From NCBI GenBank assembly GCA_027625915.1, contig JANTQA010000045.1, forward strand, positions 1,612,001 to 1,676,000: DNA of 64,000 nucleotides. Direction: 5' to 3'. This document shows, one piece after another, positions 1,940 through 62,578 of this stretch (positions are counted from its first letter, which is position 1; the number at the start of each line of letters is the position of its first letter). A program made the translations under genes and the position numbers. This DNA comes from Anaeramoeba flamelloides. Taxonomy: Eukaryota > Metamonada > Anaeramoebidae. The notes under the pieces are model-generated. The model was not told the origin of the DNA and ran no database searches. It worked only from the letters and a program-made list of their open reading frames with translations.

Positions 1940-4900
1940 TTAATTTACAATATTTTTTTCCCATTCATAACCATTTTTTTTACAGCTTATTCGGGTTGGA
2001 AATAACCAAAATAAAGGGTTTTTACCAAATATTATTATAAAATTTTTCCAAATCCCCAAATCATAATTGTTCTCGTAGTCAATGCAATTTTTTAATTTTT
2101 CTATTCTAATATAATTATCAATTGTTGTTAAATTCTTGGAGATCAAAATGATATGAAGGCAAAATGGTTTGGCCAGGAAGCAAAAGGAGACACAAGAAAT
2201 TATAATTGACAAGGCTGAGAAAATCATTAAAGCTGTACTTTCAAGAAATATTATTTCAGGAATAATGAACATTGTCGAGATTGTATTTAAACACATCGAA
2301 TATAGCACACTTAAAAAAAAGAATTTGTAATTCCGAAACCCAACCATATTACTTACTAAATGGCATACGTGATCTGGCTTTAGGATCAATTGATGAAATG
2401 TTTTCGAATACCGAGCTCTATCCGGGCGATTTCGATCATGCCCATACCTGTGCTCTCTTGTTCGGAGAGGAAAATCAACCATTAGACGGAGATCTGAATG
2501 CGGATCCCAATTCCAATCAGGTGGTACAATTCCTATTCAAGATTTTATTAAGGGTTTGAATAAATGTTAAATCAATAAAGAACTATTATTTTAAGATTTT
2601 TTGATGGAATTTTATATTTCTCCTCAAATTCAGATCCACAAAGCTGATGTTCATTATCGAATATCATTTATTGTTGGATTATCAAGAATAAATTACTATT
2701 TTTGAATTTTTTTTTATTTTTTTTCTTTTTTTATTTATTTATCTACTGTTTTTAAAATAACCCAGGTCCATCTGGTAAATCAGTGACGTAAATTAAAAGT
2801 AGTATTTCTTTTTCTTTTCTTTCTTTCTTTCTTTTTTTTTTTTTGAGAAAACTCCTAGATTAAATGGACAAAAAAAAACAGACAATAAACAATAAGTAAA
2901 TATGATATTGCTTTCTTCAAGTTTTATTATTAAAAAAGAAATTCTCAAAATGAAGGATCAAAAAGGAAATTTTTCTACAAAAAATCTAATAAATTTTGAA
3001 GAAAATTTCTATTCGAAAAAATTAGAAATTTTCAAAAAAAATTGGAACAATTATGAAAAATTTTAAACAAAATTCATTTTATAATTTAAAATTATACTGA
3101 AAAAATCCAAAAGATTTTACTTTTAACATTTGTTTGGCATTAGGTATACTATCAGATATCGAATCAGATGATGATGTATTTGAACAAGAAGAAGAAAAAT
3201 TATACAGACGACGATTTTTATTTGAAACACGGGTTTTATTCTCTGCTAAACATATTAATTTTTTTGACATTCTAGAATTCAAATACATTTTTCAGTAATT
3301 ACAATTATTCTCATCTTGAAAAAACATTCACAAAATTCAAAAAAAATGTGAAAATAACATAATCATGTATTTTTTTTCACACCAGTTATATTACGTAAGT
3401 ATCTAGTAACTACTGTGTATTTTCTTTCTATACTATAGGGGTGGTTTACACTCTAAAAATGATAATGGAAGTAGACTTCTTATTATTGGGAAAAATTAAA
3501 AGAAATTATTGTTAGGATTGACAAGATTAGAATGTTGAAAATTCAAAGTTTAAAGAAAGAAAAAATATTAACATTTTTCTTGTTGTATATTTCCCACTCG
3601 CTTAAATTTCATCAATTTGAAAACAAAGTGTTTTATATAAATACAAAATAAATAAATTCAATTTAAACTGTGGTTGTTTTATAACCACATATATTTACCA
3701 AGTAATCATTCTGTCAGATTCTTTCATCACAATTTAAATTCATTTGAAAAACCCAAAAAATGAATAAAAAAAATCTTCAAGATATCAAAAAGCAATAAAG
3801 TTAGAAAACTAAATTAGGATTAAAATACTTCTGATGACTGTGTCTACTTTAGATACTCTTTGAATTGGAAGTCTCAAATTTAGTCACTTCAAAATTCTCT
3901 CTTTAACAGATTAGACAAGTCTTTTGTCTAACCCTTAAAAATAAATTCGAAAAAGCAATAAAGTGAGAAACTTTGAAACTGAACCCAGTTGTATTCAAAA
4001 TTATATATTCGAAGAATTTAAATTGGAAATTGAGTGTCGTTCTTTGGTGCTTTTTTTCTAAAAAATGTCCTTAATTTTTCATTGTTGAATTTCGGAGATC
4101 CATCTTTCTTCACCTACTAGTTTATTTTCAATTGATATTAGTAACGCACACATAGAGAAAGATAGAATTTTTTTTTTCAATTTCAAAAAGAAAAATTTAA
4201 TGTAAACTCCAATTCAACATTTTTAACACACCAAAATTCAATTTTTGAAAGAAAAAAAATCTTATTTAATCAATTCAAGAAGAAATACCAAATTAGAGTC
4301 ATTCACTATATTGAAATGTTTGTCACTTGTTTATAAATTAGAATACTCACGAAATAAAAAATAAATAATTATCAATACTAATAAATTATCAGTGTTTTAA
4401 AAATTTTGAGGTCGAGTTCTGTTCCAAGCATTTTAAAAAAGTTTTTCTATTTGTCTTTAAAATAGTCAACAAAACCCAAAAGAGCAATTTTTAGGTTGTC
4501 TATTAAAAACTTTTTGAAATTTGCTACCTTTTTAAAATGAATTTAAGTGTTATTCATATTTCATGAACAAAATATACTCTTTTTACGAGCTAAAAATTAT
4601 TTATTGGCTTAAAAGAATGTTGAGTAAAGAGATCTTGTTCCAGTTTTTAAAATTGTGGTTTTTTTTTTGAAAATTTGTCTTTTTTAGTAAACAATTTTTA
4701 CTTGAGAAAATTCGAAATTTACTTTGAAAACCAAAACTTATATTAAGCCAAGATTTATCCAAATCATTTTTAATCACCATATAGTTTACTTTAAGTTTAC
4801 CAATATCCTTGAAAATAATTTAATTAAAACTATGTAGTATATCAAAAAAAAAAAAAAATCGATTTTAAATTTGTATTGTTTTGTTCGAAAAATCATGAAA

Positions 4901-7900
4901 AGTTTTTGGTTCATGGAACTGTTTTCTTAATTTTCGTTAAAAATCCTAAAAATTTGCAATATCTTTACTTTCCTTTTAATTTACATTTTTTAAAAATCAT
5001 TTTTATTGGTTAAGGTTTTGTATTTCAATCCTTACAAACCATTAAATATTAATCTTCCTTAAGTGAATATCTGCAAGAAAAAAAGCACAAGAGCATTACA
5101 AGCCGATTTAAAAAGGATTTTTTTTGGGTGTGTCCTTCCCATAAAAATAATAAATTAATTTTTCAAAATAAATTAAAAAAAAAAAAACTTTGTTGAATTA
5201 ATTTTTAATCAAAATAATTTAAATTATTTTCATTAAGGGAGTAGCAACACCATAACAACCACTGAAATTGAAATATGTGATAGTTTATTTAAAATTATAT
5301 TGGTGTTCGTAAGTTCTAGGTTCTCTAAAAAATGCAAATAAAAAAAAAATCCAAAACTTTAATTTTACTAATATCAACAATTAAAATTTCAGAGAATAAA
5401 AAAAAAAAAATTAAATTTTGAGAAATTTATTCGGTTTTTTAATGTAGATTATTTTTTGGGATATAAGACTAAACACTTTCACTTTGTATTTTTAGATTTT
5501 ATTTTTATAATACTTTGTAATTATTTGATTCTAACCTGATCGGCGAATATTCTCCAAAATCTAAATATTCTACAGATCTCAAAAAATAATTATAATAATT
5601 ATGTTTTACCTAAATTCTATTTTAGAAAAGACAATTTCAGGTTTTATTGGTATTTCTTATATACATTTTTATTTAATAGTGCTAAGATTTTAAAAAGCAA
5701 TTTATTTTATTTTATAATATTCTTTTAGTATTATTAAACAAATTTAATATTAATTAAATTCTTTTCTTTCTTTTTTTTTAACTTACTTGAAATGTTTTAG
5801 TAACTTATTTATTATTAATAAAATAATAAACCACCTTTTGTTTTTATCTTACAAAAGTGACATAATATTTTCTAGATAATTCTTTTGAATTATTATAAAT
5901 ACAAATATATCCTTATTTTAGAAGTATTAATCTAGGATTTATTTAAAACTTTTTTAAAAATATTTACTCGGCTTCAACTAATCAATTTAACAAAATATAT
6001 CTGAATAATAAAATTAAAAAAAACATATTTCTATTATCTTTCCAATCTTTAAAATTCATTATTTTGTGCATTTTAAAAAATACTTTGAATTCATATTAAT
6101 TATTATTTTGAATGTTTAAGAAAAGTAGTTTAGCATATTCATTTCAATTCCTAATTAGTTTTAGTAAAATGTGTAATTATTTGGATTTTTGAGATTCTAT
6201 TTTATAAGATTTAAATTACAAATCATGATATTGGTCTTCATACCAGTATTAAAAATTAATTCCAATTTCATATTTTGTAACTTTTTGGATAATTTTAAAA
6301 TTATTTTAGAATTAGAAAAATAATATAATTTGATTAAATATAAAGATCTTCAAAAAAACAAACAATTTTGAAAAATAAACTAAAAGAAACAAATTAAACC
6401 AGTGATCAGATCAAAAAGATCTTTTTCTTGTGGTTTTATACCTGGTTGGTGCGTTGATTGAACATTTACATCGACAATACTTCTTATTATATTTTTGGAA
6501 TAGTCCTTGACTCCTAACTTATTACCATATAAGATTTACTAACAATGCAAATACTCAGGATAATAGAAACCATTAAGTACATTCTATACTTTTAATTCTC
6601 TTTAGTTAAAACAATCGCTTGATAGAATCATTTTTTTAAAAAAAGCAGTTTAAACTTCAAAATATTTCACAAACATGTTTAATATAAAATGAACGATCTT
6701 AAGATTGTTTACCATTTCGCTTTTTTTTATTGAAAAAAGTACATATTGTTCCTTTTAAATTTTTAGAGTAAGTTCAATTGAAATAAGAGTCTTATACCAG
6801 AAGTCAACACTTTCACTTTTTTTTTAATTTACAATTGGATCTGAAAAATGACTTGTTTATTTAGTCTTGGTTTTGTTTGATTTTGATTCTTTAAAGAGCT
6901 ATGTTTAAAAACAATTTATAGTAGTGAAAAAAATACCGTACATGAAAATAATCCCTGACAAGATTTTTAATTGTGAATATTTGGAAAATTGTTGTGAAAT
7001 TACAAATATTTTCAATCAAATCCTTTTTATAAATAACCAAATTGTATTATGATCCGAGCAATAAACCTCCCTAAAGTTCATTAAAATAGGGTGCCTATGA
7101 AATACGTAAGTAATTGTTTGATAGCATAAGTAGATCAACTTTTTTTGAAAAAAAATCGGGCTTTAAAGAGGTTTAATTACTAGAGTTTGGAAAATGGTAA
7201 TTTTATTCTTGTTTTTTGATTTATTGAATGGTATATTGAGCAAGTGCAATTTAATTAATCATCATTCTAATAAGTGGGCGAGTTATAATTTTAAAAGTTT
7301 GACTTTAAAAAAAAAAGATTTGGTTTTTAAATAAAGAAATTATTCAGCTATTTCACATCAATTTTCCAAATATTCACAATTAAAAATCTTGTCAGGGATT
7401 ATTTTCATGTCCAGTATTTTTTTCACTATAATATTAGATTTTTTTCCAACATAAAATAAAATGTCAGAATAGAATGTTGAGATAAGAATAAAAGTTAAAC
7501 TATTTAACATTCCCCAAAAGTAGAGTAAACAAACAACTTAACATTGTATTGTGGCATTTAATTTTAATTGTGAAATTAAAATTAATAAATTGTTTTTTAA
7601 ACAAGTACTTTAAATACTAAAAAGCAACTAGAAACACAAATGAAGTAAACAATGGTTGTTTTCTAATCTTCTTTTGAAAAATATTAAAAAGTGAAAATTT
7701 TGACTTTATGGTGGCTAGTCCCTTAAGTAATAATTGTGAAATCTCTGCTTTTATCATTAAGTTTCCTTAAGAAATTGAAGTAAAAGTACATATCGAGTGG
7801 ACTTTACACTTCTTCAATAATACTGATAAATTCAAAAAAAAAGTTTGATACTTTTTGGTTCAATTTTCATTTTTTTTAGATCTCTTTTAAACCAACTTTT

Positions 7901-9083
7901 CAAAACATTTTTTTTTTCCGACAACAGTCTTGTGGTCAGCTAATTTGCATCTTTTCTTTATATTTAAACCAATAAAATTCTTTCTTCAAAGCTTTTCAAA
8001 ACACTTTACAAAAATTGGAAAGTGAACCATGAAGCCTGAAATATTTTTGTGTATTTATCAGTAATAATTAAAGGATTTTTTTTTTCTTAAACTGTGCTTA
8101 TCCGATTGGGTTTTGGAGAGAAAAAAAGATCATTTCTATGTGAAAAATAATATATAGAATAAGGAAAATGCACACCTTTTCATTTCTCGCCTTTTGTTAT
8201 TAATTATCGATTGACAAATTCCTATTTTTCTTCAATCGACTACAATGGATCTTTTGTTTTCTTATTCTTTTTAAAAAGATTCATATTTTCACTCTATTCA
8301 AGGTCACAAGAAGTTTCGAATATTATATTTTAGACACAAGAGCTACGACTTTCAAGTGTATCCGTTGAATTGAAATGACAGAAACTGATTATTCGTTTTT
8401 TAGAGAAAGCTTGAACACTTAAATTATATATTCCTTGTTTACTTGTTGTTTGGTTTTTTTTTATTTTTTTTGATTCTGAATTTAGATCCTTTTGTAACGC
8501 GTTTGTCTTCAAGGAAAAAATCCTTAAATGTTTTTTACTAATGCAAGTTTGCTTGTTTTTATCATTTTTTAAAAAAATCTTATTATTCTTTTTTTTTTTT
8601 TTTTTTTGGTTTTTTTTTCAAAATAACTGGGTGATTAAGCGTCCTTTCAAAAAAATATCACTAAAGAATTAATTTGTAAATCTAATAAAATGAAGAATAA
8701 GAAAATTTAAAATTCAAACCAGGGCTTGTGAATGACGTTCTAAAATAAGAGACAAAGAATAAAAAAGATAAGATATCAAAAAGGATAAGAATTGCTTTTG
8801 AATTAGGCGACACGCTGCGAACGTTATTAAACACTAAATGAAAGATCACAAGTACATAAACTGAAGACATGACAGAAAATAGTGCTGGTAAATACAATCG
8901 CGGTACAAGAGGGATATGGCCTGCTACATAGAATGTTTTTTTCTTGTTACTGAATACCTTGAAAAAAAGAAATTTTTTAATCAAGTAACTTCTTATTTTT
9001 GGTCTTCCTTCATCAGTCAAAGTATAAGTATCGTTGGGAGTTGATAAGTTATCATTTTTGGACATTTTGTGATTGTCAAACAA
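1940..9083 (-). CDS. DHHC-family palmitoyltransferase with degenerate zinc domain, 2 exons
   Basis: Two exons, 8720-9083 and 1940-2532, join in phase to give 318 residues (312 if the second ATG at 9065 is used). DHHC enzymes are multi-pass Golgi or plasma-membrane proteins that S-acylate cysteines. Exon 1 gives two membrane segments and ends in RTSFTSPG; exon 2 continues IVPPDW, the usual TM2-loop of this family. The cysteine-rich domain aligns without gaps to the family (PDRA..., ILK.DH.C, VSN.VGFRNYKFFF), but DHHC reads DHVC (residues 175-178) and the other expected zinc-ligand Cys/His are replaced. Two further membrane segments and a family-like tail (YDLGIWKN) follow. The catalytic cysteine is kept. 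The intron (2533-8719) is 6187 bases, starts GTTTGA rather than the usual GTAA, and carries transposon insertions. It may be a divergent enzyme or an inactive paralogue. Confidence 0.8.
5237..7722 (+). mobile_element. TTAA-flanked DNA element, copy A (non-autonomous)
   Basis: This 2486-base non-coding element is bounded by TTAA at 5233-5236 and 7723-7726. Its ends are imperfect inverted repeats, GGGAGTAGCAACACCATAA on the left and GGGACTAGCCACCATAAAG when the right end is read inward. Its full length matches 23615-25591 in reverse orientation, which confirms the borders. TTAA duplications are typical of piggyBac and Kolobok elements; no transposase remains, so the superfamily is undecided. 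It carries a nested insertion at about 6921-7428. Confidence 0.8.
6921..7428. mobile_element. TA-flanked inverted-repeat element nested in copy A
   Basis: The arms are about 80 bases long and nearly perfect. The left arm begins GTGAAAAAAATAC near 6923 and includes ACATGAAAATAATCCCTGAC; the right arm, 7349-7428, is its complement. It is flanked by TA. The corresponding place in copy B (about 23890-23910) lacks the insert, so the empty site is visible in the same window. The ends and TA target suggest a Tc1/mariner-type MITE. Confidence 0.8.
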
Positions 9084-11773
9084 AAGAACAAAAAATGAAA
9101 AAAATATTTATCTTTTCAGAAAGATTGTTTATTATACCAGTTTTTATTTCATCCCCTTTTGCAAAATTGATTTTTTAAAATCATTTCTATAGTCAACAGC
9201 AATGTGCTGAAATAAGAAAATCAGTGGAATGTTTATTGTTATATTATATTTTCATCTCAATTCTAAAATATAAATAAACAATTCAATTATAATTTTTTAA
9301 GGGATTTGAGTCGACCAAGGAGATGCCTAAGATTAACGTATGTTGTTATTGGGACATAAACCAGCATTATTTCTATCTCGTTCAAATGTCTCTTAAAAAG
9401 CGATTTGTTTTATAAAATAAGACCTAAAAGGTGAACTAATCAATTATTAATGATCGTTGTTTTAGTGAAAAACCCAATAATTTCAGAAAAAAATCTTCAT
9501 TTCAATACAAATTTAGAAGACGAATCATGATTCTCAAAACTTCAAAGTTGAAAAATATCTTTCTTAAATTGGTATTAATATATAGTTCAAAACTATTCAA
9601 TTTTTTTGAAAATAGTAAATAATCGAAAATTAAAAAATATCTTTATCAATTCAGACCTAAGTTTCAGAGTGATAATTAATAAAATCTCGATCATTATCTA
9701 AAAATCGTGATAAATATCAAAATGTTGTGATAAAAAATTAAAAACAATATAAGAAACTATTTTCCAGTCAATGGGGCCCAGTTGTGGAGAATGATTACAT
9801 ACATTTAAAGTTTTTGGATAGATATTAAATTAATATAATTTATTTCGGAAAATTTCAAAATTGTAAACATTTTTTCACATTTTTTATAGATTTTACTTTT
9901 TTGTTTTTTTTTGTTACATAACTGATTTGTAATTTTTTTTTATAGCAAGACTGAGAGCCACTTAGTAAAAAAATATCATTCTAAGGTTATTAAAAAAGTA
10001 TGTGTGATTGGAGAGAAATCATGCGAATAATTTAACGAATAATATTTGATTTTCAATATCAGATTAAAAAGATCATTGTTTTTTTTTCTTAATAATTCAT
10101 CAAGAATTTGAGTTTTATCCAGCCTCTAAAATAAATCTAAAAATCTGGATATCTGAATTTTTTGAAAAAAATAAAAAAATTAATAATATCTCCAATATTA
10201 TTAATAAAAAGAATTCATCATGTATATTATCATTAGTAAGTGATAATAAAATTTGTGATTCTTTAACAAAATTTCTCAAAAAAAAATTTAGAAATTAGCG
10301 CACACAGGAGAAAAGCAATTTTCTCTCTTTAAAAATAAAAAAAAAAAAAAAGAATTTGAGTTTTTAAATTTTTAAAGGCGTATTTTGAGTTAAAAGGGAA
10401 AAAATACATATTTTGAAACAAATTTATTTCAAATTCTTTTTTCAAGAATGAAAAAACCGCGATCTATATTACTAAAGAAATGATTCAATCGTTCAGAGAA
10501 TAAAAAAAAAATAAAAGTGATCATAATTATAAGATTTTTTAATGGAAGAATTGTTCAAACACAATAAAACCCAAGTTGATAGTTTTTATAAAAGAAAAGA
10601 AAAAAAAGAGATTTATTTTGGTAAAAGAAAAATTAAAGAACCAATTGTCTTTTAGAATCGGAATTGAATATCGTCAATGTATTTAGCAACAATATGCTTT
10701 ACAATAAAAAAAAATTCCAAAAAAATAATTTATCAAAAATAAATCAAAAAAAATAAATACTTTTTTTATTACTTTAGAGTAGTGATTAATGAAAGAAAAG
10801 TATATCAATAAAAAAAAGAGAAAAAAACCAAAAAATAAATAATCAAAAGTGTGGGAAAAAAATATTTTTTATTCTCTTGATCAAGATCTAATTTACTTAT
10901 AATTTCAAGTGTTTATTATTCCATTCTAAGTAATTTAAGTAATTAATTGAGATATTTCAATGATATTTCTTTCTTTATTTGTTTTTATTTTTTTTTCCTT
11001 GTATTTTTGGAAAAATTGGAGAAGAACCTTCCAAAAAAGGGTAAATAAAAAAAATGTAAAACTATGGGGTTTTTTATTATTTCCTACACACGTTCTTTTA
11101 GAAAATATATTGATTTTTTATATTTACTTCGTATGAAGATCAAATATACTTTGATATGTACAATTCTACTTTTATTTTTTTTATTTGTTCTAGGATATTA
11201 AATTATAAAAATAAATAGATTTTCGGAAATATGTTTTTGATCATATTTAACAGAAATAAATTTTATATCGTGAATTATGAAGCTAAATATACAATTTTTT
11301 TAAAAAAAAACTTTTATTTGATCAAAAAATCGATCTTGAAAAAATACGTCATCATTAGTTTAACCAATAATCACATCAAGAGTTCTCATTGTATTTTTCT
11401 TGTATTTTTTGCTAGATTGATTAATTCTTTTTAGCACAAACATTAATAATAAAAAAAAGTTGAAATAATAATTTGTCCTACATCTACAGTGCTATAGATT
11501 GACAAGAAGAACATCAAATTTACAATTGTTAATATCCAACACCATCTTTAAAGAATATATTTTAGGTTTAATCTTTTTTCCAGGTGAAAGTTACAAGGGG
11601 TATGAATAAATTTCCAAAAGATCTCTGAATAAGTTTACTAAACTCTTGATAATTATGAAAATTTTCTACTAGTTTTTTCTTAATATTATTATTAATCGAC
11701 CCCATTATCTTCAGATTTCACCTAAAACTTTACTTTATCTAAAATATATTAAGGGATGATTAGTCAATAGAAA

Positions 11774-11835
<62 letters not shown>

Positions 11836-12958
11836 GAAAAGTATTTTTTTATTTTCATTTTTTTATTATTACTTTTTCTTTATTACATTAAGTTTTCTAA
11901 CCTAAAAAAACTTTCATGAAAAAAAATCACCACAATAAAAATAAATTGCCTAATTTTGATTAGTGAAATTAGCTAATCTTTTATTATTGTTTAACAGAAT
12001 AACCAATTTTATATAGAGTTTTGTTGGAAAATTTTTGACATTTTTTTTTTTTTTTAATTCGGTTCTAATAGTTTAATATTTTTTGCAATGCAAAATAAAG
12101 TGATTTATTCTTTCATAAAAATGAGAAATAATCAAATTTTTAACATTTTCCTTTTTTCCAAAATATCTTGTAATCATATTTATTTTTTTAAAAGAAGTAA
12201 GTATCTATTTAATAGATTTGTCTAGAATTTCAAAATTTTGTTTTATAATATTTATTTTTGAGATATTTTTTAAATTGGCTAAAATTTCCAGTTTTAAATA
12301 ATTTTATGAGATTATTTTAAAGAGCTTTTGTGTGATGTAGAATGTCTATGTTTTTTATTAAGTCATAATAATTGAGAAAAATCTTAGATTTTAAATAATT
12401 GTTTCAATAAAAATAAAACCCCAACAGTTTTTCCAAAATTGATTGCATATTGAAATGTTAAAATTTTTTTTATTCATAATTATTATAATTCTTTGTTTCA
12501 CAATTATTTATTTGTGTTCTGGGTGGTAAGAGTAATAATTGGTTTAATTACCAAAATTCATCAATTTTGGAATTAAATGATTCAAGAAAAAAAAAATATA
12601 AATCAAAAAATTAAAGTTTATGTAAGTTGTAAAAATTATAATTTATCTTTTAAAATTAATAGCTTTGGTCAAATTTTCTTGGAAACTTTTTTTTTTATTT
12701 CTTTGATAATTTTATCTGAAAACTCCGAATTTACCATAAATTAGCAGTTTTTCCTTTTACTTGTTTTCTTTTCATTTATTTATCTTTTGCAAAATCCAGA
12801 ATATTTTTTTAAAAGAAAATGTTTGTAAAAATGAGTAATAAAAAAATCAAAAAATAAAAATAAAATAATAATTCCATAGTATTTTATTACACAAATACAA
12901 ATCAATAAAAGTAAAATTCTCAAAAAAAAAAAAATAAATATACATTAAAAATTACTTT
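9084..12958. other. Intergenic stretch, no gene seen
   Basis: These 3.9 kb lie between two minus-strand genes and hold A+T-rich DNA without a supportable open frame. The only clear structure is the TA run at 11777-11832. Confidence 0.6.
11777..11832. repeat. (AT)n microsatellite
   Basis: An uninterrupted AT/TA dinucleotide run of about 56 bases, the longest in the window, in gene-free DNA. Confidence 0.95.
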
Positions 12959-15685
12959 TTATATTTCCTTAGAATTATTTTTGTTTTTTGTTGATGATAA
13001 TTTAGCTTGTTTAGGGAATTGGTCAATAGTGTGATTATTAAGGGTATTATTTTTAATTTGTTTTTTCATTTTCCTCTTGTTAAAAAATTTAAAAAGATGT
13101 CTTCTCTTTTTTAAGACGCGCAAAACATCCAAACGTGTATCATCAAAAAGATATAAAAAACCAAAACATGATCTAATTGAAAAATTCCATTTGATAAGCT
13201 TTTGAATATGAAAAATAATAGAAATTCCCTCTTCTTTGTATTCTTTCTTCTTTAATATATCAATATCGGAAAAGTTCCAACAATTTAATTGTGGTTTTGT
13301 CAGAATAACACCAGAAATCTCAGGCGATGAATAGGTAATAATTTTTTTATTTGTTACAATATATACAATATTTAATGGGATTTTTGAAAGTTTAAGCATC
13401 ACTCTCCCAATCGACAAACTCAGAATCAAAGGTGTTAGCAACAAATAAGGGAAAATATGCATTTCTATAATTATTAAAAGTTATCATAGAACATATTAAA
13501 TATAAAATAGATAAAAGATTAGTAAAAAGAGAAAACGGAAACAGAAAGAATAATGAAATTTTTAATTACAATTTATTTCAAAACATTGTTTACGAAAAAA
13601 TTATTTTTGATAAATTTATGGATTAAATCAAAAAAAAAACTGTAAAAATTAATAATTTACATTACTGTTATTTTAAAAAAAGTGAATAAATTTTTTTATG
13701 AGAGTATATGAATTAAAAATTTTTTAAAAATTTGTATTTTAATAAAGTGAAACAAAAGATTTGTTATTTTTTTGTCAGAATAAAAACTATTTTATGTTTG
13801 ATATTGTAATAAAGTGTGTACTCTTATAAATAAAGTGTTTTACTTCAGAACACAGCACCTGCTCTTCATTTAAAGGTGGGCCTTTGCCTTTTTAAATTAG
13901 AAAACTTTAAATACAGTGGTGTAAACAACCGGTGTTTTTTATTCTAAACCCATTACTAAAATTATAACTCATGCGAAAAATATTGGCTGACTCTAGAAAT
14001 AAAAGAAACAAATCAATGGGATGACAACAGTATATAAACAAGAAATAGGGTTCATTAAATTAATTTTTAAAAAAGAATTATGAAGATATTGAAAGATTAA
14101 AACGTTAATTTTTTGACAAAAACATGAGAAAAAGATCATTTTTTGAATTTTTTATTTAAAAATCATTTAATCTCAGAAATTTTGAAAATATGATGAAATT
14201 TTTGAAACAAAAGCATTTAATATAAAAGAGCAATTTCGACTAATCAAAGATCTAACCTCTAAAGTTGATTTAAATCTGAACCAAGAATATATAAGTAATT
14301 TCTGGTCTTCCAATAAACAACTCTGAAAAAAAAACACGAGTTAAATTTTAGTAACTGGTTAAATGTTGTCAACACGAGTTATTTACACCATTGTATGTTT
14401 TAATTCTGAAAAAGTTTTCACTTTTTGAAAACATATGTAAAAGTAAACTAGATTTTTGTTTTTCTGTCATTTTCACTATTAATTTTTCAGAGTGGGGATT
14501 TTTTGGTTTTCTACTTTTACCAAATGGTTAACATTGATAGATTTAGAATAATTAGTCAATATCCAAATTAGAATGGTTAAATATTTAATCGATAATTTAG
14601 TAATTATACTGAAAATGGGAAATATATTTTCTAATTTTAACAACTAATTTTAATCAATCAAAAAAATTGATCTTCGTATTTTTGTTAAATTTCCAGGTTT
14701 AAAATGTAAAAGTTCTCAGAAATAATTTTGAATTGTCAAGCACAATTACAATTGTAGCAATAATTTTGATAATTCTTTTTTCCTATACACAAGGACTGGA
14801 AACTGAACCAATCTGTTTTTAATGTTAATGTAATAAAATACCAATAGATTGTCAATTTTTTCTTAAAAGTTTAAAGGTTGAAAAAGGCAGGTATATTTTT
14901 TATTTGACATCTCCTATTCAAAACAAAAATGATTGTAATAATTAAAAACAGTTCTTTGAGCAATTTTAGAGAGAAGACAACTTGGATTTTAAAAAATAAT
15001 CTTTTATCACACAAATAATTGATTTTAGTTTTTCGAGTCTTTTACAAAATGTGTGACAAAGTAGTTTTGAAAATTAAACCTAATAGTGGAACTTCAAACT
15101 CCAATACAATTATTTTCAGAGGTAAATCTAAAACTTATTTTGTCACGTATTTTCAAAAGGGTTTAAAAATGATTACATTTCTTTTGGAGATTGAAAAATA
15201 GTTGATAAAAAAAAATAAGCAAAAAAATGATATCTATATGATCAATCTTCAAAAAAGCGAATGAAGTTGCTTCTTTAAACACCTAATAATTTTTCCAACC
15301 CTTATAATAACCAAAATAAATTTCTGATCAGTTCAAAAAAAGAGCAAACAAAAAAAAAATCAAGTGTTTTACCTAGCATTATTCTTGTTATTGCCATACT
15401 AAGAAAACAACCAAAAGAATAGCCAATGAAAATTAGTATTGTTCCTTTAAACACCCTTTTCGTTTCAGGCCTGCCAATCCAGAGTATTTTCTCGTCCTTT
15501 TCCAGAACTTGCAAAATTGTTAATATCACTTTCTTGGAGATGAATTGGAATTTGGATGCCAGTGATTCAAGCTGTTTGAATTTCTTGGTCGAAGAAAAAA
15601 ATCTCCTGATTTCTTGAACCACTAAATGAATAATAATGAAGGCACTGCAATAGTTAATGTAATTAAAAATTTTAATAGAGTTCAT
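12959..15685 (-). CDS. Small membrane protein with bacterial-PH-like domain, 2 exons
   Basis: Exons 15373-15685 and 12959-13464 join in phase 1 to give 272 residues. The signature of bacterial-type PH-like membrane proteins is visible in order: DEKILWIGRP at residues 64-73, two hydrophobic segments (about 77-103 and 106-124), then YIVTNKKII at 139-147, followed by a beta-rich part and a lysine-rich tail. Neither exon alone has the complete layout; the join restores it, and both splice sites fit (donor GTAAAA, acceptor TATAG). In bacteria such proteins are membrane-anchored with unknown ligands; the function here is unknown. Homology rests on pattern, not on a search. The 1908-base intron carries a MITE. 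The first ATG, at 15685, opens the frame. Confidence 0.65.
13914..14393. mobile_element. TA-flanked MITE in intron of the PH-like gene
   Basis: A 480-base non-coding element flanked by TA on both sides (13912-13913 and 14394-14395). The terminal repeats are CAGTGGTGTAAACAACCGGT on the left and CAATGGTGTAAATAACTCGT read inward from the right. The CAGTG start and TA target suggest Tc1/mariner. Confidence 0.75.
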
Positions 15686-17639
15686 TGTTCGTTTTCTTCA
15701 AGTAAGTATTTTGGAAGACAAACAGAAAAAAATAATTTTTGTTTCACAGAATTTAATTTTGATCGTATCCACTTTCCTTTAGGTGTAATTTCATAAATCC
15801 TAAATTTAAAACTTAAATTTCTTATTAATTCAGGGATAACATGAGCTGTTTCTCTTCGTTAACTATTAATAATTGCATCAAAAATTGGTTTTTTTTTACA
15901 ATTAGATATTTAAAAGTTAAAACTGAATTTTTCCATCTTCAGATCTAAGACAAAAATAATTGGTGTTTCAAAAACTTGGAAAAAAAAATTTTTGTAATCA
16001 AATTAATGTTCAAGTCCTTTGAAAAATGTGTGAAAAAAAAAATAATAGAACAGACGAAATTTAACTTGAGAACCTTCCTTATACCCAACTTCATTCCAGA
16101 GATAAGAATTTTTTTGATCACCCTTTTTGAGAAATGACCCCATTTTTTATTGTCAAAATTCAAAATTCTTGTTTAATTCTTTGTATCCTGTTATTGAAAA
16201 TTTTAAAAGGATCTGCCAAAAGCTTTAAAGTTTTTTAGAATTTCGAACTTTTCTTGACCAAATCTCTCCCTGAAATTCAAATACATTCTAAAAAAAACTG
16301 TAAAACAGTTCAATAGAAAAATCAAAGAGCTATCTATTTTTTAAAATTATTCTTTCAAAATAAAAACCGAAAAAATATAAAATTTTTTCTCATTTCTTAG
16401 CCAAATTCAAGAATACAATTGGTATTTTACAAATCCCATTTGGAAACAAAACTAAAGACTTTTTTAAAAAGGTGTCTCACAAGAGATATAAAAATAGAGT
16501 TCATCAAGTTTATTATTTTTTTTAATTCACTAATTGAAAAGTTTGTTTTCTCATTTTTTGTAAGGCACAAATCGTAACAAACTTTTGTAAAAAAACTTTT
16601 TTCTATTTAAGGGAGAAGACTAATTGTAACTAATTTTGCGGTGATCAGTTTGTTTGTAATTAAATTACTTTCATTTTCTCATTAAGATAGAACTGTTTTT
16701 CTATCCGTTTATAAAAAATATTTTTTTAAAAATTGAATTACATTAGTATTAAAAAAAATCAAGATCCAAACAAGATCATTTGATCATGAAAATCTTGAGT
16801 TTTTTTTTAATTTAATCTCTTTATTATTGAAACTTTGAGATGAAAATTATATTTTTTTGTTTATAAGATGAAAACAACTGGTGAGAAAAACTCGATTAAT
16901 TGTGGTTGTAATCTCTAATTAATTTTTGACAAGAGTTTGGTTGTTTTCAACAAATAATGACCATAATATTTTTGGTAACCTGAATGGTAATTTTTTATTT
17001 ATTAATAGGAAAATGACAATAAGTAAATATCATTTTTGGAAAAAAAGAAATAATTTTTTTGATAAATTGAGAGTGAGATATTTCCTAATAATATAATACC
17101 ATATCAAAAAAGGTTTATACATATCATAAATACAAAATAGGAAAAAACATCAAAATATTTTGCAAGTTTACTAAAATCTCTAAAAATATTATTTAAAATT
17201 GGTTTTTGGAAATTTCTTGGGACTGGACACCATACATAATTATTTAAAAAGTGTGGGAACTTGAAATAAACTTTTTTCTTGATTTTAAAGAGATCTTAGT
17301 GTTTTTTCAGCTTCAAAGTCTTAAAAAAATTTGGAACTTGAAAGAAAAATTTCATTAATTTATTGGAAAATTACAGCAAATCATATTTGTTGCAATTTTT
17401 TTTTTAATTGAATAATTCTTCAAGGGGTTGAGGATTTATCTCTTTTGTTCGTTTTCTTAACCCTTTGATTGAAAATAAGCGTAAAACATTATTAAAATCG
17501 GTATCTTCCATTTATTTCTTCAAATTGCTCCATATTTAAATCAGTAAAAAAAAAAAAATACAACTCAAAAGATAATAATATTTTTTTTAACCTTAAGGAA
17601 AAGTCAATTCTTTTTTCTTTTTTTAAAATTTATTATTTT
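15686..17639. other. Intergenic stretch, no gene seen
   Basis: A+T-rich DNA between the 5' end of the PH-like gene and a decayed coding region. A weak inverted pair around GAAAACAACTGG / GGTTGTTTTC (16870-16955) was noted. Short open stretches here have no protein-like composition. Confidence 0.5.
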
Positions 17640-18503
17640 GGCTTTTACTCTTGAAACCCAACATTGCCAATATCATGTCTTTTCCTTTCCACTTCTTGAT
17701 TAGTATCATTATTGTCTTCTTCAGAACTAAAATTAAACATGTCCCCACCCGATTCTTCTTGGTCTAAATTTTGCATTCTGGCAGATAATTCTTTATTCGA
17801 TCTCTACATTTTTTTTTTGGCTTTCTTCAAGTTGATTCCTGATCTTTATTGCTTGTAATTCAAAACCTTTTCTTTTTTTTTTGTTTTTTGGTGTTAATTA
17901 ATTGATAAAACTATTTGTTGGAATTCATTTCTAATTTTTTTAAATCATTTAGGATCTTTATTGGATCTGTGACATTTGAAAATCTTGTCAGTTGTGAGAC
18001 AGTCTCTTTTTTTTGCACGTGTTTCAACTTCTGGTAAGCCGTATAATAATTCAGTTGATCCTTCTTTTGGGCCTGACTCAAAAAGGTAATTGACTTTGTG
18101 ATTTAATAATTGTTTGTTATGTGTCCGTTGAAAGACTGATCCTAAATATAATGCAATAGATTTGCCAATTGGTGTTTTAAAGAAACTTTTTTGGCTTTCT
18201 TTTGGTTACTTGGCTTTTTTTTCAATCAGTCGTTGCTAAAATCCGTTTTTCAATTTCTTCAAAGATTTTTCTTTTCCTTTCCTTCATATATTTGTTGCGC
18301 CAAGATATCAGAACCCAATCCTTTAATGCGTTTGGTGACACTTTGGAAAATCCCAGTTCTTCTTTCTTCTACCCGATCTAATAAATTACAGTTGTTTTTT
18401 CTGTTCTTTTGGTGGTAATTCTTTCTTCGAATCTTTGACTCTTCATGCAAATACTTGTGCGTCTTCTCAGAAGGGATCAGAACCTTAACGGAGTATTGTC
18501 CAT
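17640..18503 (-). pseudogene. Decayed coding region, unidentified
   Basis: This stretch is richer in G+C than its flanks and reads as protein on the minus strand in several pieces that lie in different frames. One piece contains SVKVLIPSEKTHKYLHEES (near 18440-18495), another RIKGLGSDILAQQIYEG (near 18290-18340), another GKSIALYLGSVFQRTHN (near 18110-18160), and a last acidic piece FSSEEDNNDT (near 17700-17730). I could not connect them with splice sites, so a broken gene is more likely than a spliced one. I do not recognise the family. It lies head-to-head with SYS1, about 480 bases away. Confidence 0.4.
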
Positions 18504-18982
18504 TAAAAATAGCTTAATACGGTAATTTCGTAATTTCAAAAGTGTAAAAAAAAGATAATAGAATAACACCAGAGATGTAACACTAACCAATGTCTTGAGC
18601 CAATATAAGAAAAGAGAGCTTTTTAAAAAAAATGAATAATAAAGTCGACGAAAAAATCGTTTATTTTGAGAGTGAAGATCTGGAATAATTGTTTGTTTCA
18701 CTCTTAGTGGACAGTTTAACTGTGAGGTTTTCTTCTAAACTTAACCTGATACTCCTTTTATCCAAGAAAAAATTTCTTAATATCATATCAATTCAATTCA
18801 CTAATATGATAGAAATAAAAATTTACCAAAAACTTCATATCACATTGTTCGAGATATTTAAGTATAAATAGACAATATTCTAACTTGGAGTCTTTGTGAA
18901 ATAAAAGAATCGACTTATCAACGAAATTTTGAAAAAAACATTTTTTAACAACCTTTTTTTACTCAATCAAATTTATTTAACA

Positions 18983-21900
18983 ATGTTTTTCAATCGCAAA
19001 TATGATCCGTTGTTAATATTATCGCAAATTAGTTTCATTCAAACTATTCAATACTTTTTTTCAAGCGTTTTTTTGTTTTGTATGGATTCTGTCTTCAAAC
19101 AAAATTATTCTTTATCGCAATTGTTTTCTTACAAAAAATTAAAGATCACAACCTTCGAAGGGTGGATTTGTATGATTTCGTTTCTTCTTTCAAGCGTCGC
19201 AACGTAAATTTAGTCTTAAGATTTTTTTTTTTCTTTTTCATTAATTCTTTTGTTCTTTTGTTTTGTTTAACTTAACAAAAGAAGATTTTTTTTTAACAAA
19301 CCACAAGACAAACATGGAAAAAGAACAACAAAAAGACACTCAAAAAAAGTAAATCAAAAAAAGAACAAATACCCCTAATCCCAATCGTAATTCGGTGTTA
19401 TTTAAATTCTTTTACTTCAGCATCAACAATAAAAAAAATTTATCAAACATTATTAAAAATTCATCTTGAATCACCATCCCAAATACAAACCAATCTAAAT
19501 TTTAATGCAGATATGTTCGTAGAAAAACAATTATCTTTTTTTTGTTGTTTCATTTTGGATCTCCTTTTCTCTTTAAAAATCAGGATCTATTGCTTTTTCA
19601 TCAACAATAAATTTGTGCCAATCAATTATTTTCTGTACAAAATACCAATACCAAAAGAAATCGTCTCGACAAACAACAACCAAAATTTTTCTTTGGAATA
19701 CCAGCCCACTACAACCATTTCAACTCTCGTACAACTACAATTATTTTCCAATATCTAAATGAAAATATTTATGCCAATTTCCAAAATGTATTTTAATTAT
19801 TACTGTTACAATCGAAGTAGATGAGTAAAAATTTTGTCTTCGAGTTGTCAAAGGGAGTTTCTTTTAATTGTCTAAAAATATCATAACGACAAGATTTGTT
19901 AAAGATCTTTGGGGTTTCTTGAACTATTATTCATCTAAAAATATTTTGGAATATCTCTTTCGGGAAGGGAGGGGGGGATTTTGTACCGATCTTTAGGTTG
20001 GAAAAAAATTAGGATCATAAGACATTTTAAACTTGTAAAACAAAAGTTAATAACATAAAATCAAATCATTTTCTGATCGATTGTTTCATACTCTTTATTG
20101 GTCACTGTAACTTTTTCAAAAGGGAAAAAACATTAAAAAAAAATAAGGATAAAATTTTAATAATTCAGTTTAAAAAATTTTTTGTTTGATCCAAAATGGA
20201 GATATTTTAGTAATGTATTCTTTGGGCTAATTTTGAGTGTTTGTACAAAAAGAGATCCTGGCAAAACAAAAAAATAAAAATTAAAAATTAATTAAACTAT
20301 TGAGTAAAAAAATAAAATTTGACGAAAAGTGAAGGTTTGGAGTTCAATTCTATCGAAAGTCATTTGTTTTTAGATCAATTGATGGAATTTTTCAAAGCAT
20401 TTTTTATGAAGGTAATTTATCTTTTAAAGTAAATTGAACATTGAAGGCAAATTTTTGAAGTACATGTTTGTTATAGAGTACACAATGATGTTCTTCAATT
20501 CTATTGCTAGTATGAACTTTTTTCCGTTTCATTTAATAACTAAATTTTTTTCTCGAAAATATAAACTTATAAAAAGAATTTTTCACAAAACAAACTTAAC
20601 AAATAAGGTCTAGACCGTGAGGAGTTCATTATACTCGAGCATTGGAAAATTGTTTTTGATCCTTTAAATCATTTTGTTAAAAAAAATAAAAGAAAGATCT
20701 TTTGTTATTGTAAATAATCTGATCTCATCTTTTTACATTTGTAAATTATGTTTTACAGCTTTAAACTGTTTTTAAAATGTTTTTTTTTTTATCTGTCAAG
20801 ATGAGAAATAAGTTGAAAATTGGACAGCTAATTTTATGAATCTTTGTTGTTTTTGATCCAAAAAAATAAAAAACCACGGGTAACACTGTACTAATGAATC
20901 ATTTTTTTTAATTCCATTTAGGATACCAATAGAAACTTTTTAAAATGGATTTTCCAGATTTTCGAAAAATTGACTTTTTTTAACTTTTTAAAAATCACTT
21001 TTTAAAAAATAAAGTCTTTTGTTAAGAGAAAAACAAAGTTTTAAAAAACAATAAAAAACACAACAAAACAAGAAAATATATGAAATAATGAAGCAAAATT
21101 TATTATTCATTTCAAAAAAAAATTCAAGATCAAAAAACTTTTGTACTCATCACCTATTAAGAAAGGCGTTGTTAGGATACCATTTACGAGGTCCCATGGG
21201 TTAACTGATTACAGATTTAGTGTTACTTTGGATCGTGTTTTCCCGTCCCGAAAGAGATATGAAATAAAAATTTTTGTTTTTTAATTGGAAAATTAATGTA
21301 GTGAAAATTTCGGGAAAATTCACACGATCTTGTGAAAACTCATTAACCCACCCAATTTCCTTAAAAAAACCCTTAATATATAAAAAAGGGTATTACCATA
21401 CTGTTAATTGTCAAATAAAAAGATCAAAATTTTCATTAAAGCTTTTTCAAAAAATATCAAACTAAGAATTAAAAGAAAAATCCTCAAAGTTCCCAATTCT
21501 AAAAAGAGAAAATTAATTATTTAGGATCTTTACAGTATCAAAAAATTGGAAATGTTCCAGGATTTATAAAATATAATTTTGGAAGGTTGAGTGAAATTTT
21601 TGTTCCCAAAATTTTGCAACAAATAGTACTGTTTTGTTGTTCATTTTTTAAAAATAACCTTTATAAAGTTCTCTTTTCTAAACTATTTAGAAAAATGATT
21701 TCTATTATTTTAATATCGTAACTCAATGAATAACTGTTTATTGGGGTTTATAAAAAAAAAGAAATTTGAAAAAAAAAAAAAAATGTTGAAAATAAGTTCA
21801 AAATTCTTCTTTTTATTCTTTAAGGGGTACTTAGGATATTGTGCCATGATATTATTAAAGAATATTTTTGGGATCAAAATCATTATTGAGAAGAATAGAA

Positions 21901-24900
21901 CTATAAGAAACCTATTTATACTTTTTTTATTTTGAAATACAGCTATTTTAAAAAAGTGAAAACTTTTTCAGAATTAAAACTTTAAAAAAGTTTAAAAAAA
22001 AAATCTCACTCTTTTATAAAATGTTTGTATATAATTTTTTTATTAAATTTTAATTTTGGATTAAAGATAAACAACAAAATAAACCGTATTTCAAAAATTA
22101 TAAATGTCCTGAAATAATAAATTGTAAAAAAAAAATATATTATATATGGTATTTCCAAAAAAGTGTGGCATTTTTTTTAAATTTCATAAAAAATCATCTT
22201 TGTTAGTGAAAGCTATTCCTTAATTGACAATACCAAATTAAGTTTAATATTAATACCGATTGAATCAATGGCTAAGGTATTTATTTCAAAATATGTTTGT
22301 TGAAATATTTCAAAAAAATGAAAAAAAATATAGTACCTTTTTATATCAAAAACGAGGTACGATAAATTTCAATAAAAAAAACAGAAATATGGAAAGGGTA
22401 CAAATGATTTTTTAAACGGCCAAATACAGTTGTATGTTTTCGATTCTATTAGAAAATTTGTTGAGATTAGACAAGTTATGAAAACAATTTTTTTAATCAA
22501 AAAGAAAATAATAAACACCAATTTTCACCACTAAAAAATATAAGACAAAATCGAGAACAGAAAATTTAATATCTTTTATTTATGTAATACAATACTAAGA
22601 AAAAAATTGAATTATTATCAAGAATCAATCAATGTTAGTTAATGATTTTGGATATTTAAACACTTTTTTGAAGATTGAGTTTGATAAATATATTTTAAAA
22701 TAAATTTGCCCCACTTTCTTGGAAATAGTTTAGTGTTCAACCACAACCAATATTAAATCTTATTAATAATTCGCTTTTCAATTATTATAAATATATAAAA
22801 ACCTGATATTTTAAAAATTAAAAAAAAATAAAACCAAAAATTAATAACAAGTGAGTTACAGTTTTAAAAATGGGTTTTACGGGTTTTTTGTTACTGAACT
22901 TTCACAGAAAAAAGTTTAACAAGAAGATTTTTTGTTAATAATCAATTTTTTTTAAAAGATATTATATCGTCGGAATTTAATTAGTTATTAATTGTCTTTT
23001 TGAAGATCTTTTTACTTTTACACAAGATCTTAGTCAAAAAAAGAAAAATAAAATTCATAAAAAGAAAAAGAAAAACAAAAGAAAAAGAAAAAGAAAAAGA
23101 AAGAAATAAACAAAAGCAAAATAAAAATTTTAAAGAAATTAGAAAAATTGATTTTGATCTAAAAATTGAAAATTTTTTTTGTTGATAAGAATATTGTATA
23201 CAGTCACACAAAACCACTTCCAATAACATTATAATTGGAGAGTCAACATTTTTGAAAAAGAGTTTAGATTACGTTGTTTTTTTCCAAAAAAAAAAAAAAA
23301 AAAAGCATTTTACAAACACAGAATGTAGCATTCGCTAGTAATAATTAAGAAAAAATAAAAGATAATTCTTTTTTTTTTTCAATTTCTTATAAATCATTTT
23401 AAAAAATTTAAAATTTGTTTTGAAAAATATTGGTTGTTATTTTACTAGGTTTGGTAAAAAAATATATCCAAATACTTTAACATCAATATCAAAGATATTT
23501 TTAAATTATATTGTTGTAATAACCAAGATTATTATCAGCACAATATAAATAAAACACTCAACAATAATTCGAGTTGTTTTTTTTTTTTTTTTATGTGGTC
23601 AATCCACTTGTTAAGGGAGTAGCTACCATAAAGTCAAAATTTTCACTTTTTAACATTTTGCAAGAAGATTAGAAAAACAAAATTGTTTGCTTTGTTTGTG
23701 TCTCTTTGCTTTTTAGTATTTAAAGTGCTTGTTGAAAAAAAAATGATTGATTTTTTTTTTCACAAGTGAAATTAAATGCCACAATAAAAGATTAAGTTGT
23801 CTGTTTTATCTACTTTTGGGAATGTTAAATGGTTTTACTTTTGTTCTTATCTCAACATTCTATTCTGGCATTTTATTTTATGTTGTAAAAAAAATTTAAT
23901 AAATTGTTTTTAAAGCAGGCACTTTAAATACTCAAAATCAAACAAAACCACGACTAAATAAACAAGAAAGTTTTCAGATTCAATTGTAAATTAAAAAAAA
24001 AAAAGTGAAAGTGTTGACTTCTGGTATAAGACTCTTATTATAATTGAACTTACTCTAAAATATTAAAAAGGAACAGTATGTACCTTTATCAAAAAAAAAT
24101 AAAATAAAAAAAGCGAGATCATAAACAAATCTTAAGATCTATTATTTTATGTTAAAACCTTTTTGTGAAATATTTTGAATTTAAACTGCTGCTTTAAAAA
24201 AATAATTAGGTCAAGATATTGATTTAACCGAATAGAATTAAAAATATAGAATACACTTAATGGTTTCTATTATCCTGGGTATTTCTATTGTTAGTAAATC
24301 TAATATGGTAATGAGTTGGGATTCAAGGATTATTCCAAAAATAAAAAAAGTAATGTTGATGTAAGTATTCATCAATCAAAATACCAACTAGGTATAAAGC
24401 CAAAAGAAAAAGATCTTTTGATCTGATCACTGATTTAATTTGTTTCTTTTAATTTTATTTTTCAAAATTGATTGTTTTTTTGAAGATCTTTATATATGAT
24501 CAAATTATTATTTTTCTAATTCTAAAATAATTTTAAAATTATCCAAAAAGTTACAAAATATGAAATTGGAATTAATTTTTAATACTGGTATGAAGACCAA
24601 GGCCGTGGTTTGTAGTTTAAATCTTATCAAAATAGAACCTCACAATTCTAAATAATTAGATATTATATTAATTTTAATTCGGAATTGAAATAAAAATGAT
24701 AAATTAATCTTGCAAACAGTAAAAGGAACAATTATTATGAATTCAAAGTATTTTTTAAAATGCACAAAATAATGAATTTTAAAGATTCGAAAGATAATAG
24801 AAAAGGTTATTTTTTGATTTTATTATTCAGATATGTTTTGTTACATTGTTGAGTTAAAGTCGAGTAAATATTGTAAAAAAGTTTTAAATAAATCCAAAGT

Positions 24901-27150
24901 TTAATACTTCTAAAATAAGGATATATTTGTATTTATTAAAATTCAAAAGAATTTTTAGGAAATATTATGTCACTTTTATAAGATAAAAACAAAAGGTGGT
25001 TTATTATTTTATTAATAATAAATAAGTTGCTAAAACATTTCAAAAAAAAAAAAAAAAAAAAAAAAGAATTTAATTAATGATAAAATTGAATAATTTTAAA
25101 AGTATATTACCAAATAAAATGAATTAATTTTTAAAAATATATTCCATTAAATAAAAATTTATAAGAAATATCAATGATGCCTGAAATTCTCTTTTTTAAA
25201 GTAGAATTTTAAAAAAAAATTAATTATGATTTAGTTTTTTTTTTTGAGATCTGTAGAATATTTAGATTTTGGAGAATATTTGTACTTGAAATTATCTGAA
25301 AATAATTACTAAATATTATAAAAATAAAATCTAAAAATACAAAGTGAAAGTGTTTTGTATTATATCTAAAAAAAATAATCAACATTTAAAAAATTAAATA
25401 AATTTCTCAAAATTTAATTTAATTTTTTTTTTTCTCTGAAATTTTAATTGTTGATATTAGTAAAATTAAAGTTTTGTATTTTTTTTTTTTTTTAAATTTT
25501 TGGAGAATCTAGAACTTATGAGATCCAATATAATTTTTAATAAACTAACACATATTTCAATTCATTTCGTTGTTATGATGTTGCTACTCCCTTAAGATAA
25601 AAAAAAAAAAAAAAAAATTCAACATAACTCCTTTTCAGTCAAAGGGTGGCAGTTTTATTAAATAAATAGAACAAATTCTATGATTTTTATCCCATATTCT
25701 TCTAAAAAATTATTTTTCAATTTTCAGATCAAAATCATTTTTTCTAATTTAGTCAAATTTTTTTAATTATTTTTTTAAATTTTTTGTTTTACTAATCTTT
25801 TTTCTTTTAGTTTTTTTTAAAAAAGGTAAAAAAAAAAGACAATGTTTGAAAATCCAAATTAACATTAAGAAAAGCGAGGATTTGTAATTTCTTTTAAAAT
25901 GGATAAATTTATCTCTTAAAAAAACATTATTGTCAACTATTTTAATTTTTCGAAAGAAATTGAGAATTTTTCACATCAATGTTACAACAAAAGTGCCCCA
26001 AAAAATTTTTTTTACATATTTTATTTTTTTTGAAAATTTTTAAGTTTGCAAAGGTATTTCTTTTATAATTATCGACTCTAAACTGAAGTTTATTATTTCT
26101 CTTATTTCTAAATAATCTTATGTTGGTAGATTATTAAAAAAAAATGATTTTTTCATTTTTGGCTTGTGACCTTTGGGTGAAATGGAGTTTAGTTTTTCTG
26201 TTTCTTTTTATTGCTCAAAAAACAATTTGTTCTTCCTGATCTAATATCCATTTTGTTGGAAAATTTTGTTCTTTTTATTTTTCAATTAACCGTATTATGA
26301 TAAAATCAAAACAATAATAATGGGGGTTCTTTTCAAAACATTCACTTTTGAAAAACAAAAAATTGTTTAGAAAAGACTCTTAAAAAAGTTTGCTTTTTAA
26401 AAAAGGGGGAAAAAAAGTTGAAAAAACAAAGTCCTTTTTCAGGCTGAAACAATTGACAAAAAGGAAACAAAAACCGAAATTAGCATTATCGGAAAAATCA
26501 TTTGGAATTGTTTATTCTGTTTACCATATTTTTTTTTTTTAATGAGATAATATAATCTTTTTGTAAAGAGTTGGTTTTATTAAACTCTTCCAAAATTTCT
26601 TGGAAAAGTATTAATTTTAGGTTATAGAATTATGAATCAGTGAAAAAATAATAATAATAATAATAAATAAAATAAGAATAAAATAAATTGAAAAAAAAAA
26701 AAACATTTCTTGTTAATATTTTGAAGTTTAAATACCCGAAATGTAACAATTAAAATTTGAACACAAACACCATTTCGAAAAACATGGAAATTGGTATCCA
26801 AATTATTTTTCAAAATTGATCAAATATTTTTCTTTTTCATATTTTCCTTTTCTGTTATATTATTAATATTACTGTTTAGTTCATTTGGAATTGCTGAGAC
26901 TATTCAAAGATCAAAAAAATGTTTAGATTTTATAATTACATTTCATCTCATACACTTAGTCCTCTCTTTTTGGATAAAAGGCTTTCCTTTTAGATTAGAA
27001 TGGTGGGTAATGTTTATTGCAAGCATTGCGTTGATGTTGAAATTTTCAGTAAAATTGTGTATTCGAAAGGAATTACAGGAGATTCCGTTATATCAAGAAT
27101 TTGATGTAAAAATACCATCTGTATCATCACAAAAAGAAACAAATATATAA
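18983..27150 (+). CDS. SYS1: SYS1-family Golgi membrane protein, 2 exons with 7.7-kb intron
   Basis: Exons 18983-19203 and 26880-27150 join in phase 2 to give 163 residues; human SYS1 has 156. SYS1 is a four-span Golgi protein that helps recruit the small GTPase ARFRP1/Arl3. Exon 1 gives YDPLLILSQI (residues 7-16, human WDPLLILSQI), the first two membrane spans and ICMISFLLSSVAT. Exon 2 gives KKCLDFIITFHLIHLV (86-101; human KQCLDFTVTVHFFHLL), LEWW and RKELQEIPL (136-144; human RTELKEIPL). Across the junction the spacing matches the human protein residue for residue. The donor is GTAAAT and the acceptor TTTAG. The ATG at 18983 fits the family start. Neither exon alone is a complete protein. 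The intron is 7676 bases and filled with repeats. Confidence 0.88.
22092..23260 (+). repeat. Dispersed repeat family R1, copy 2, interrupted
   Basis: The same order of blocks as copies 1 and 3 is seen, but diverged and split by a 574-base insertion at 22152-22725. After the insertion the shared blocks resume with AAAACCTGATATTTTAAA near 22800 and continue to about 23230. It also has an expanded A/G-rich tract at 23036-23140. Confidence 0.6.
22152..22725. mobile_element. TA-flanked inverted-repeat element nested in R1 copy 2
   Basis: Ends are TTTCCAAAAAAGTGTGGCA on the left and TTTCCAAGAAAGTGGGGCA read inward from the right, with TA on both sides (22150-22151 and 22726-22727). The interior is non-coding. 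The insertion explains why R1 copy 2 is longer than copies 1 and 3. A Tc1/mariner-type MITE is likely. Confidence 0.7.
23615..25591 (-). mobile_element. TTAA-flanked DNA element, copy B (non-autonomous)
   Basis: A 1977-base non-coding element flanked by TTAA at 23611-23614 and 25592-25595. It is the reverse-oriented counterpart of copy A: its left end GGGAGTAGCTACCATAAAG matches the right end of A, and its right end read inward, GGGAGTAGCAACATCATAA, matches the left end of A. It lacks the nested element present in A. Many small differences from A suggest that neither insertion is recent. Confidence 0.8.

Positions 27151-60343: not shown

Positions 60344-60374
<31 letters not shown>

Positions 60375-62514: not shown

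Positions 62515-62578
<64 letters not shown>

Follow-up and report, generated by a model that had tools for sequence, protein, structure and literature searches.

Two genes in a 64-kb stretch of the Anaeramoeba flamelloides genome, one for a SYS1 protein and one for a DHHC-like protein, are split by introns of 7,676 and 6,187 bp. It is very probable that both are two-exon genes whose old, position-conserved introns have grown longer as transposons accumulated in them, including non-autonomous DNA elements flanked by TTAA. The whole stretch analysed (the window; 64,000 nucleotides, G000:C46:1612001-1676000) belongs to a genome of 254 Mb in 76 contigs with a guanine-cytosine (GC) content of ~22%. 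A preliminary description of this DNA had joined the exons of DHHC and SYS1 across 6187 and 7676 bases; both lengths proved exact, and the joined proteins match the Pfam families PF01529 and PF09801, respectively. The names Rab, eL34, sirtuin, and RRP1 for other genes are labels of that description. The SYS1 gene and the contents of its intron are as follows, with C numbers for contigs and L numbers for loci:

18983..19203, + strand: SYS1 exon 1, 221 nt, ending in phase 2, donor GTAAAT
19204..26879, + strand: SYS1 intron, 7,676 bp, GT..AG, at the same position in the C64 duplicate and the C29 paralog
19738..21631, unstranded: ~1.9-kb segment without a counterpart in the C64 intron; its edges, 19741 and 21628, are ends of repeat matches
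22119..22732, unstranded: 614-bp repeat, with more copies on C64 and in L003
22729..23303, unstranded: ~575-bp repeat, with more copies at window 789-1284 and 53294-53642
23615..25591, − strand: element B, 1,977 bp, TTAA-flanked, non-coding; its flanks are contiguous in the C64 intron
25626..26191, unstranded: 566-bp repeat adjoining element B, not in the C64 intron
26880..27150, + strand: SYS1 exon 2 with the stop codon

Across the exon join, the predicted SYS1 protein covers positions 3-144 of the 144 in PF09801 (E 8.4e-37). Protein searches recovered two further SYS1 genes, one on C64 with exon identities of 84% and 88% and a distant third copy on C29. The C64 intron measures 1,979 bp and splits the same codon, with the donor GTAAATTTAG in both copies and the acceptor ..TTAG; the C29 intron, at the same position, measures 1,963 bp. 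Between the window and C64 genes the ratio of nonsynonymous to synonymous substitution rates (dN/dS) is 0.18 over both exons (0.32 in exon 1 and 0.10 in exon 2). SYS1 lies in a collinear duplicated block (window 17581-53111, G000:C64:6040116-6069375, ~81–88% identity) that also takes in the Rab, eL34, and RRP1 spans, each of which gives a single alignment to its duplicate (lengths 1,867/1,822, 1,086/1,111, and 1,634/1,631 bp). This comparison covered 100 kb of contig C64, within which one sirtuin exon used as a query had no match.

Six collinear anchors join the window and C64 SYS1 introns, and between them the window carries a net excess of 1.8 kb, 1.8 kb, and 2.6 kb, the last made up of B and the 566-bp repeat. 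Material specific to the window occupies three stretches (19738-21631, one between 21655 and 23517, and 23611-26191); the material specific to C64 is a 534-bp repeat at a point where the window has 13 bp. When B and the 566-bp repeat were deleted in silico, the window flanks aligned through to C64. The short introns at the same position, the contiguous flanks at the site of B, and the collinear anchors strongly suggest that the SYS1 intron grew by insertion. Element B would have entered an intron of ~1.5–2 kb, most likely after the segment was duplicated, and the two stretches of ~1.8 kb net, together with the 566-bp repeat, would make up most of the remaining growth. The third SYS1 copy also has, within its intron, a 183-bp TTAA/GGGACTAG element (L048:6820-7002), of which an 88% identical copy is found in a DHHC-like intron on C13.

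The DHHC-like gene is read from the opposite strand:

8720..9065, − strand: DHHC-like exon 1, 346 nt, ending in phase 1, unusual donor GTTTGA
2533..8719, − strand: DHHC-like intron, 6,187 bp; paralogs on C13 and C76 have theirs at the same position
5237..7722, + strand: element A, of the same family as B, 2,486 bp, TTAA on both sides, with a nested insert
6920..7431, unstranded: nested ~510-bp element in A, with ~84-bp inverted repeats, TA-flanked; more copies on C64
1940..2532, − strand: DHHC-like exon 2 with the stop codon

The joined frame encodes 312 aa and matches positions 9-130 of the 133 in PF01529 (E 2.9e-17). This domain canonically carries a pattern of cysteines and histidines together with the DHHC motif. 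The window protein has DHVC at the motif, and other residues replace most of the remaining cysteines and histidines of the domain. Eight candidate second exons of paralogs were fetched, and upstream DNA was taken for three of them. Seven of the eight (L049-L055) belong to one cysteine-poor subfamily and read DHIC; the eighth, L056, matches poorly and has the usual DHHC. The window gene and L049-L055 keep DH[VI]C, have lost most zinc-ligand cysteines and histidines, and can be described as a cysteine-poor DHHC-like subfamily. A first exon was located for two of the three paralogs, with the same codon split by introns of 4,540 bp on C13 and 300 bp on C76; none was found for the C48 paralog within the 3 kb fetched upstream. 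The C13 intron is filled with repeats, which include two TTAA elements, of 183 bp and 1.13 kb, as well as ~570 bp of an A/B family member. Against the C13 gene, the window gene differs at a proportion of 0.30 of nonsynonymous (pN) and 0.75 of synonymous (pS) sites, and unique amino-acid changes number 30 versus 36; judged by these substitutions, the window gene is under constraint. The introns of 4,540 and 300 bp at the same position and the interruption of a repeat by A argue, moderately, that this intron too grew by insertion. Copy A would have landed inside an older repeat and later received an insert of its own. As a separate observation, a second DHHC match lies beyond SYS1 in both duplicated segments (C46:1593647, at 37 kb; C64:6079032, at 11 kb), and the two may be a duplicate pair.

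The preliminary description had seen opposite-orientation, TTAA-flanked copies A and B in the two introns, along with other repeats, and suggested that transposon insertion had made these introns grow. The copies are indeed there, 85% identical, 15.9 kb apart, and each with TTAA on both sides, as are the other repeats (the 614-, ~575-, and 566-bp repeats and the one interrupted by A), and the suggested growth is borne out strongly for SYS1 and moderately for DHHC. Element A is longer than B because of the nested ~510-bp element, which had gone unremarked. In this non-coding family of ~1.97 kb, the longest open frame reaches 62 aa in A and 59 in B. Element A interrupts a repeat, and in three other copies of that repeat the counterparts of its two flanks (5117-5234 and 7728-7822) adjoin each other. 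Among 16 other full-length copies, TTAA stands on both sides in seven (in L027 with a 2-base offset), and the remaining nine have TTAA on one side and 1–2 changes on the other. Motif pairs with TTAA-GGGANTAG-like ends were found at spacings of 183, 758, about 1,130, and 1,977 bp, amid chance pairings.

Both elements have the termini GGGAGTAGC...GCTA(C/G)TCCC and thereby ends of the form 5'-RR..YY-3'. The termini of piggyBac elements begin 5'-CC. A and B share the TTAA target with piggyBac, and piggyBac-type transposase matches occur in the same genome (68 to PF13843), but the elements start with GG and not CC. In the one of these 68 loci that was examined, no GGGAGTAGC end with at most one change lies within its 3.5 kb, and piggyBac is not favoured as their source. 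Kolobok elements are described as having TTAA target duplications and 5'-RR..YY-3' ends (PMC9587614, PMC6004289), and the former paper sets Kolobok and piggyBac apart by their termini (PMC9587614). A and B are like Kolobok or T2-MITE-type non-autonomous elements in their TTAA duplication, their 5'-RR..YY-3' ends (GGGAGTAG..), and their non-coding copies; they are unlike them in measuring ~1.97 kb, and the likeness is to the published description. No autonomous copy or matching transposase was seen, and no search with a profile of the Kolobok DDD/E (C/DxxH) transposase was made. The ends appear to fit a non-autonomous Kolobok-type element better than piggyBac, and membership is offered as a lead. 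The elements would have been moved by a Kolobok-like transposase supplied in trans.

The preliminary description had also presented the two introns as giants beside introns of 63–509 bp in the genes it named Rab, eL34, sirtuin, and RRP1. The two long lengths stand, but the contrast was overstated. PF01529 has 84 exon matches in the genome, 43 of which were entered in an intron survey that yielded lengths for 18 exon pairs, 11 of them estimates, with five second exons lacking a partner within 9 kb. Of these 18 introns inside the DHHC domain, seven are 142–378 bp long, 11 exceed 1 kb, and nine exceed 3 kb, the longest being 5.6 kb. Introns of several kilobases are frequent in this genome, and long introns as such are not exceptional.

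Copies of the element are likewise numerous. Its left end occurs at least 127 times (three or fewer mismatches), and a reversed control pattern gave no occurrence. Two copies of the family sit in DHHC-like introns (the window and C13:921166), and copy L008 lies between exons matching residues 265–350 and 352–563 of cytoplasmic dynein intermediate chain. In a scan of 20 of 67 open reading frames (ORFs) of at least 75 aa around 28 other loci, 10 loci had a Pfam-matched ORF within 1.5 kb of the element. With 115 element places (100 of the 127 left ends, as listed, plus 15 from another search) and 66 DHHC loci (84 matches after removal of 18 first exons), four places are within 3.5 kb of a DHHC locus versus 0.21 expected, a post hoc count in which the window itself was ascertained; near Ras there are none versus 0.48 expected (150 Ras matches of 1,781 candidates, mostly single-exon). 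We do not lean on the proximity to DHHC genes, and copies often adjoin genes anyway. Repeats cover 65% of one intron and 54% of the other, versus 15–41% of five intergenic stretches, a comparison that is biased because the repeat library holds loci chosen by the element.

Several observations weigh against lengthening by insertion. For SYS1, the TTAA at B's site in C64 lies within a T/A run and so cannot be uniquely placed, the six anchors include two weak ones (23 and 55 bp, E 1.7e-4), one reverse-order match was set aside, and a site from which the element had been cleanly excised on C64 could look like one that was never occupied. For the DHHC-like gene, the insertion point of A shows TTAA in one of the three contiguous repeat copies and in neither of the others; the intron has no close duplicate for comparison, because the gene, like the ORFs at 12959-15697, was not found in the 100 kb examined on the C64 side. 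Its donor (8719), GTTTGA, departs from the GTA.. start of both paralogs and of the other introns looked at, so that splicing may be weak, and for both genes the exon joins rest on genomic DNA. The age of the insertions is a further point. In a distance set and tree of 22 copies (A, B, and 20 of 28 others, with shortened or interrupted copies excluded), the mean pairwise Jukes-Cantor distance is 0.16 and that between A and B 0.144, compared with 0.21–0.22 for the SYS1 duplicates; taken alone, the lower copy distance points to a burst later than the duplication. However, the terminal branch of B (0.176; median 0.133, A 0.086) exceeds half the duplicate distance, and the copies dated were picked by similarity to A, so that divergence does not settle the age. 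PiggyBac-type TTAA elements are able to excise precisely, and since a single comparison cannot polarise all insertions and deletions, and the branch of B does not place it after the duplication, the ancestral SYS1 intron might have been long and have shrunk on C64 and C29 by deletion or precise excision. We regard such shrinkage as quite improbable: paralogs of different age have short introns of near-equal length (1,979 and 1,963 bp), and repeat edges fall at or near the boundaries of the segments found only in the window.

The gaps of 6–8 kb, the GTTTGA donor, and joins drawn from genomic sequence also invite the thought that the exon pairs are not joined at all and are pseudogene fragments, or belong to separate or trans-spliced transcripts. 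This is very improbable given that the split and its phase are identical in paralogs with shorter introns, that the window exons of both genes are free of internal stops, and that selection is visible in both (dN/dS 0.18 for SYS1; for the DHHC-like gene compared with the C13 paralog, pN well below pS and much the same number of unique amino-acid changes in each, 30 versus 36). The long introns are presumably spliced out normally. Complete DHHC and SYS1 genes elsewhere had been named as grounds for refutation; paralogs do exist, yet growth by insertion stands, because they are split at the same point. The preliminary description had further proposed that the inverted pair could promote inversion between the two genes, which its two ~1.98-kb arms, 85% identical and 15.9 kb apart, might allow. 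No rearranged copy was seen, however, and swapped halves would be out of frame because the intron phases differ (SYS1 phase 2, DHHC phase 1). On C64, collinearity extends from SYS1 to RRP1, but the block lacks the DHHC-like gene and for that reason neither shows nor excludes an inversion. With at least 127 left ends in the genome, a single pair at such a distance would be expected by chance (one seen within 21 kb versus 1.09 expected for 115 uniformly placed elements), and we find the proposal barely credible.

Elsewhere in the window, two ORFs without a Pfam match (12959-15697, − strand) may be one gene with an intron of ~1.8 kb, and this putative intron holds a repeat (13908-14416) 86% identical to C64. 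A 1,767-aa open frame at 57924-63227 (+ strand), with long runs of glutamine and of asparagine/aspartate, has no visible intron, whereas its neighbours are intron-bearing. An Rfam scan of the 64-kb window gave no match at the gathering score, and seven further window ORFs had no Pfam match at E 0.01. Among the literature matches listed for introns, transposons, and Anaeramoeba, none dealt with these introns or this element.

Two DHHC-like paralogs of ancient divergence carry the A/B family in the same intron and the same orientation, and two SYS1 copies share an intron that holds TTAA elements with similar ends in both. The introns of certain gene families might then be recurrent landing places for TTAA elements, an idea that we consider improbable; if true, duplicate pairs here would come to differ chiefly in the length of their introns.

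Intron expansion by transposon insertion is known from large plant and animal genomes, and growth of introns by transposons is a well-known, textbook mechanism. As in those cases, old intron positions are kept, nested repeats add length, and the exons are under selection; unlike them, the setting here is a protist genome of ~22% GC in which a duplicated segment shows the site without the element. Because this segment keeps intact partner genes, single intron insertions can be viewed beside the uninterrupted site and together with selection on the exons, and intron growth in an AT-rich protist thereby becomes measurable locus by locus.

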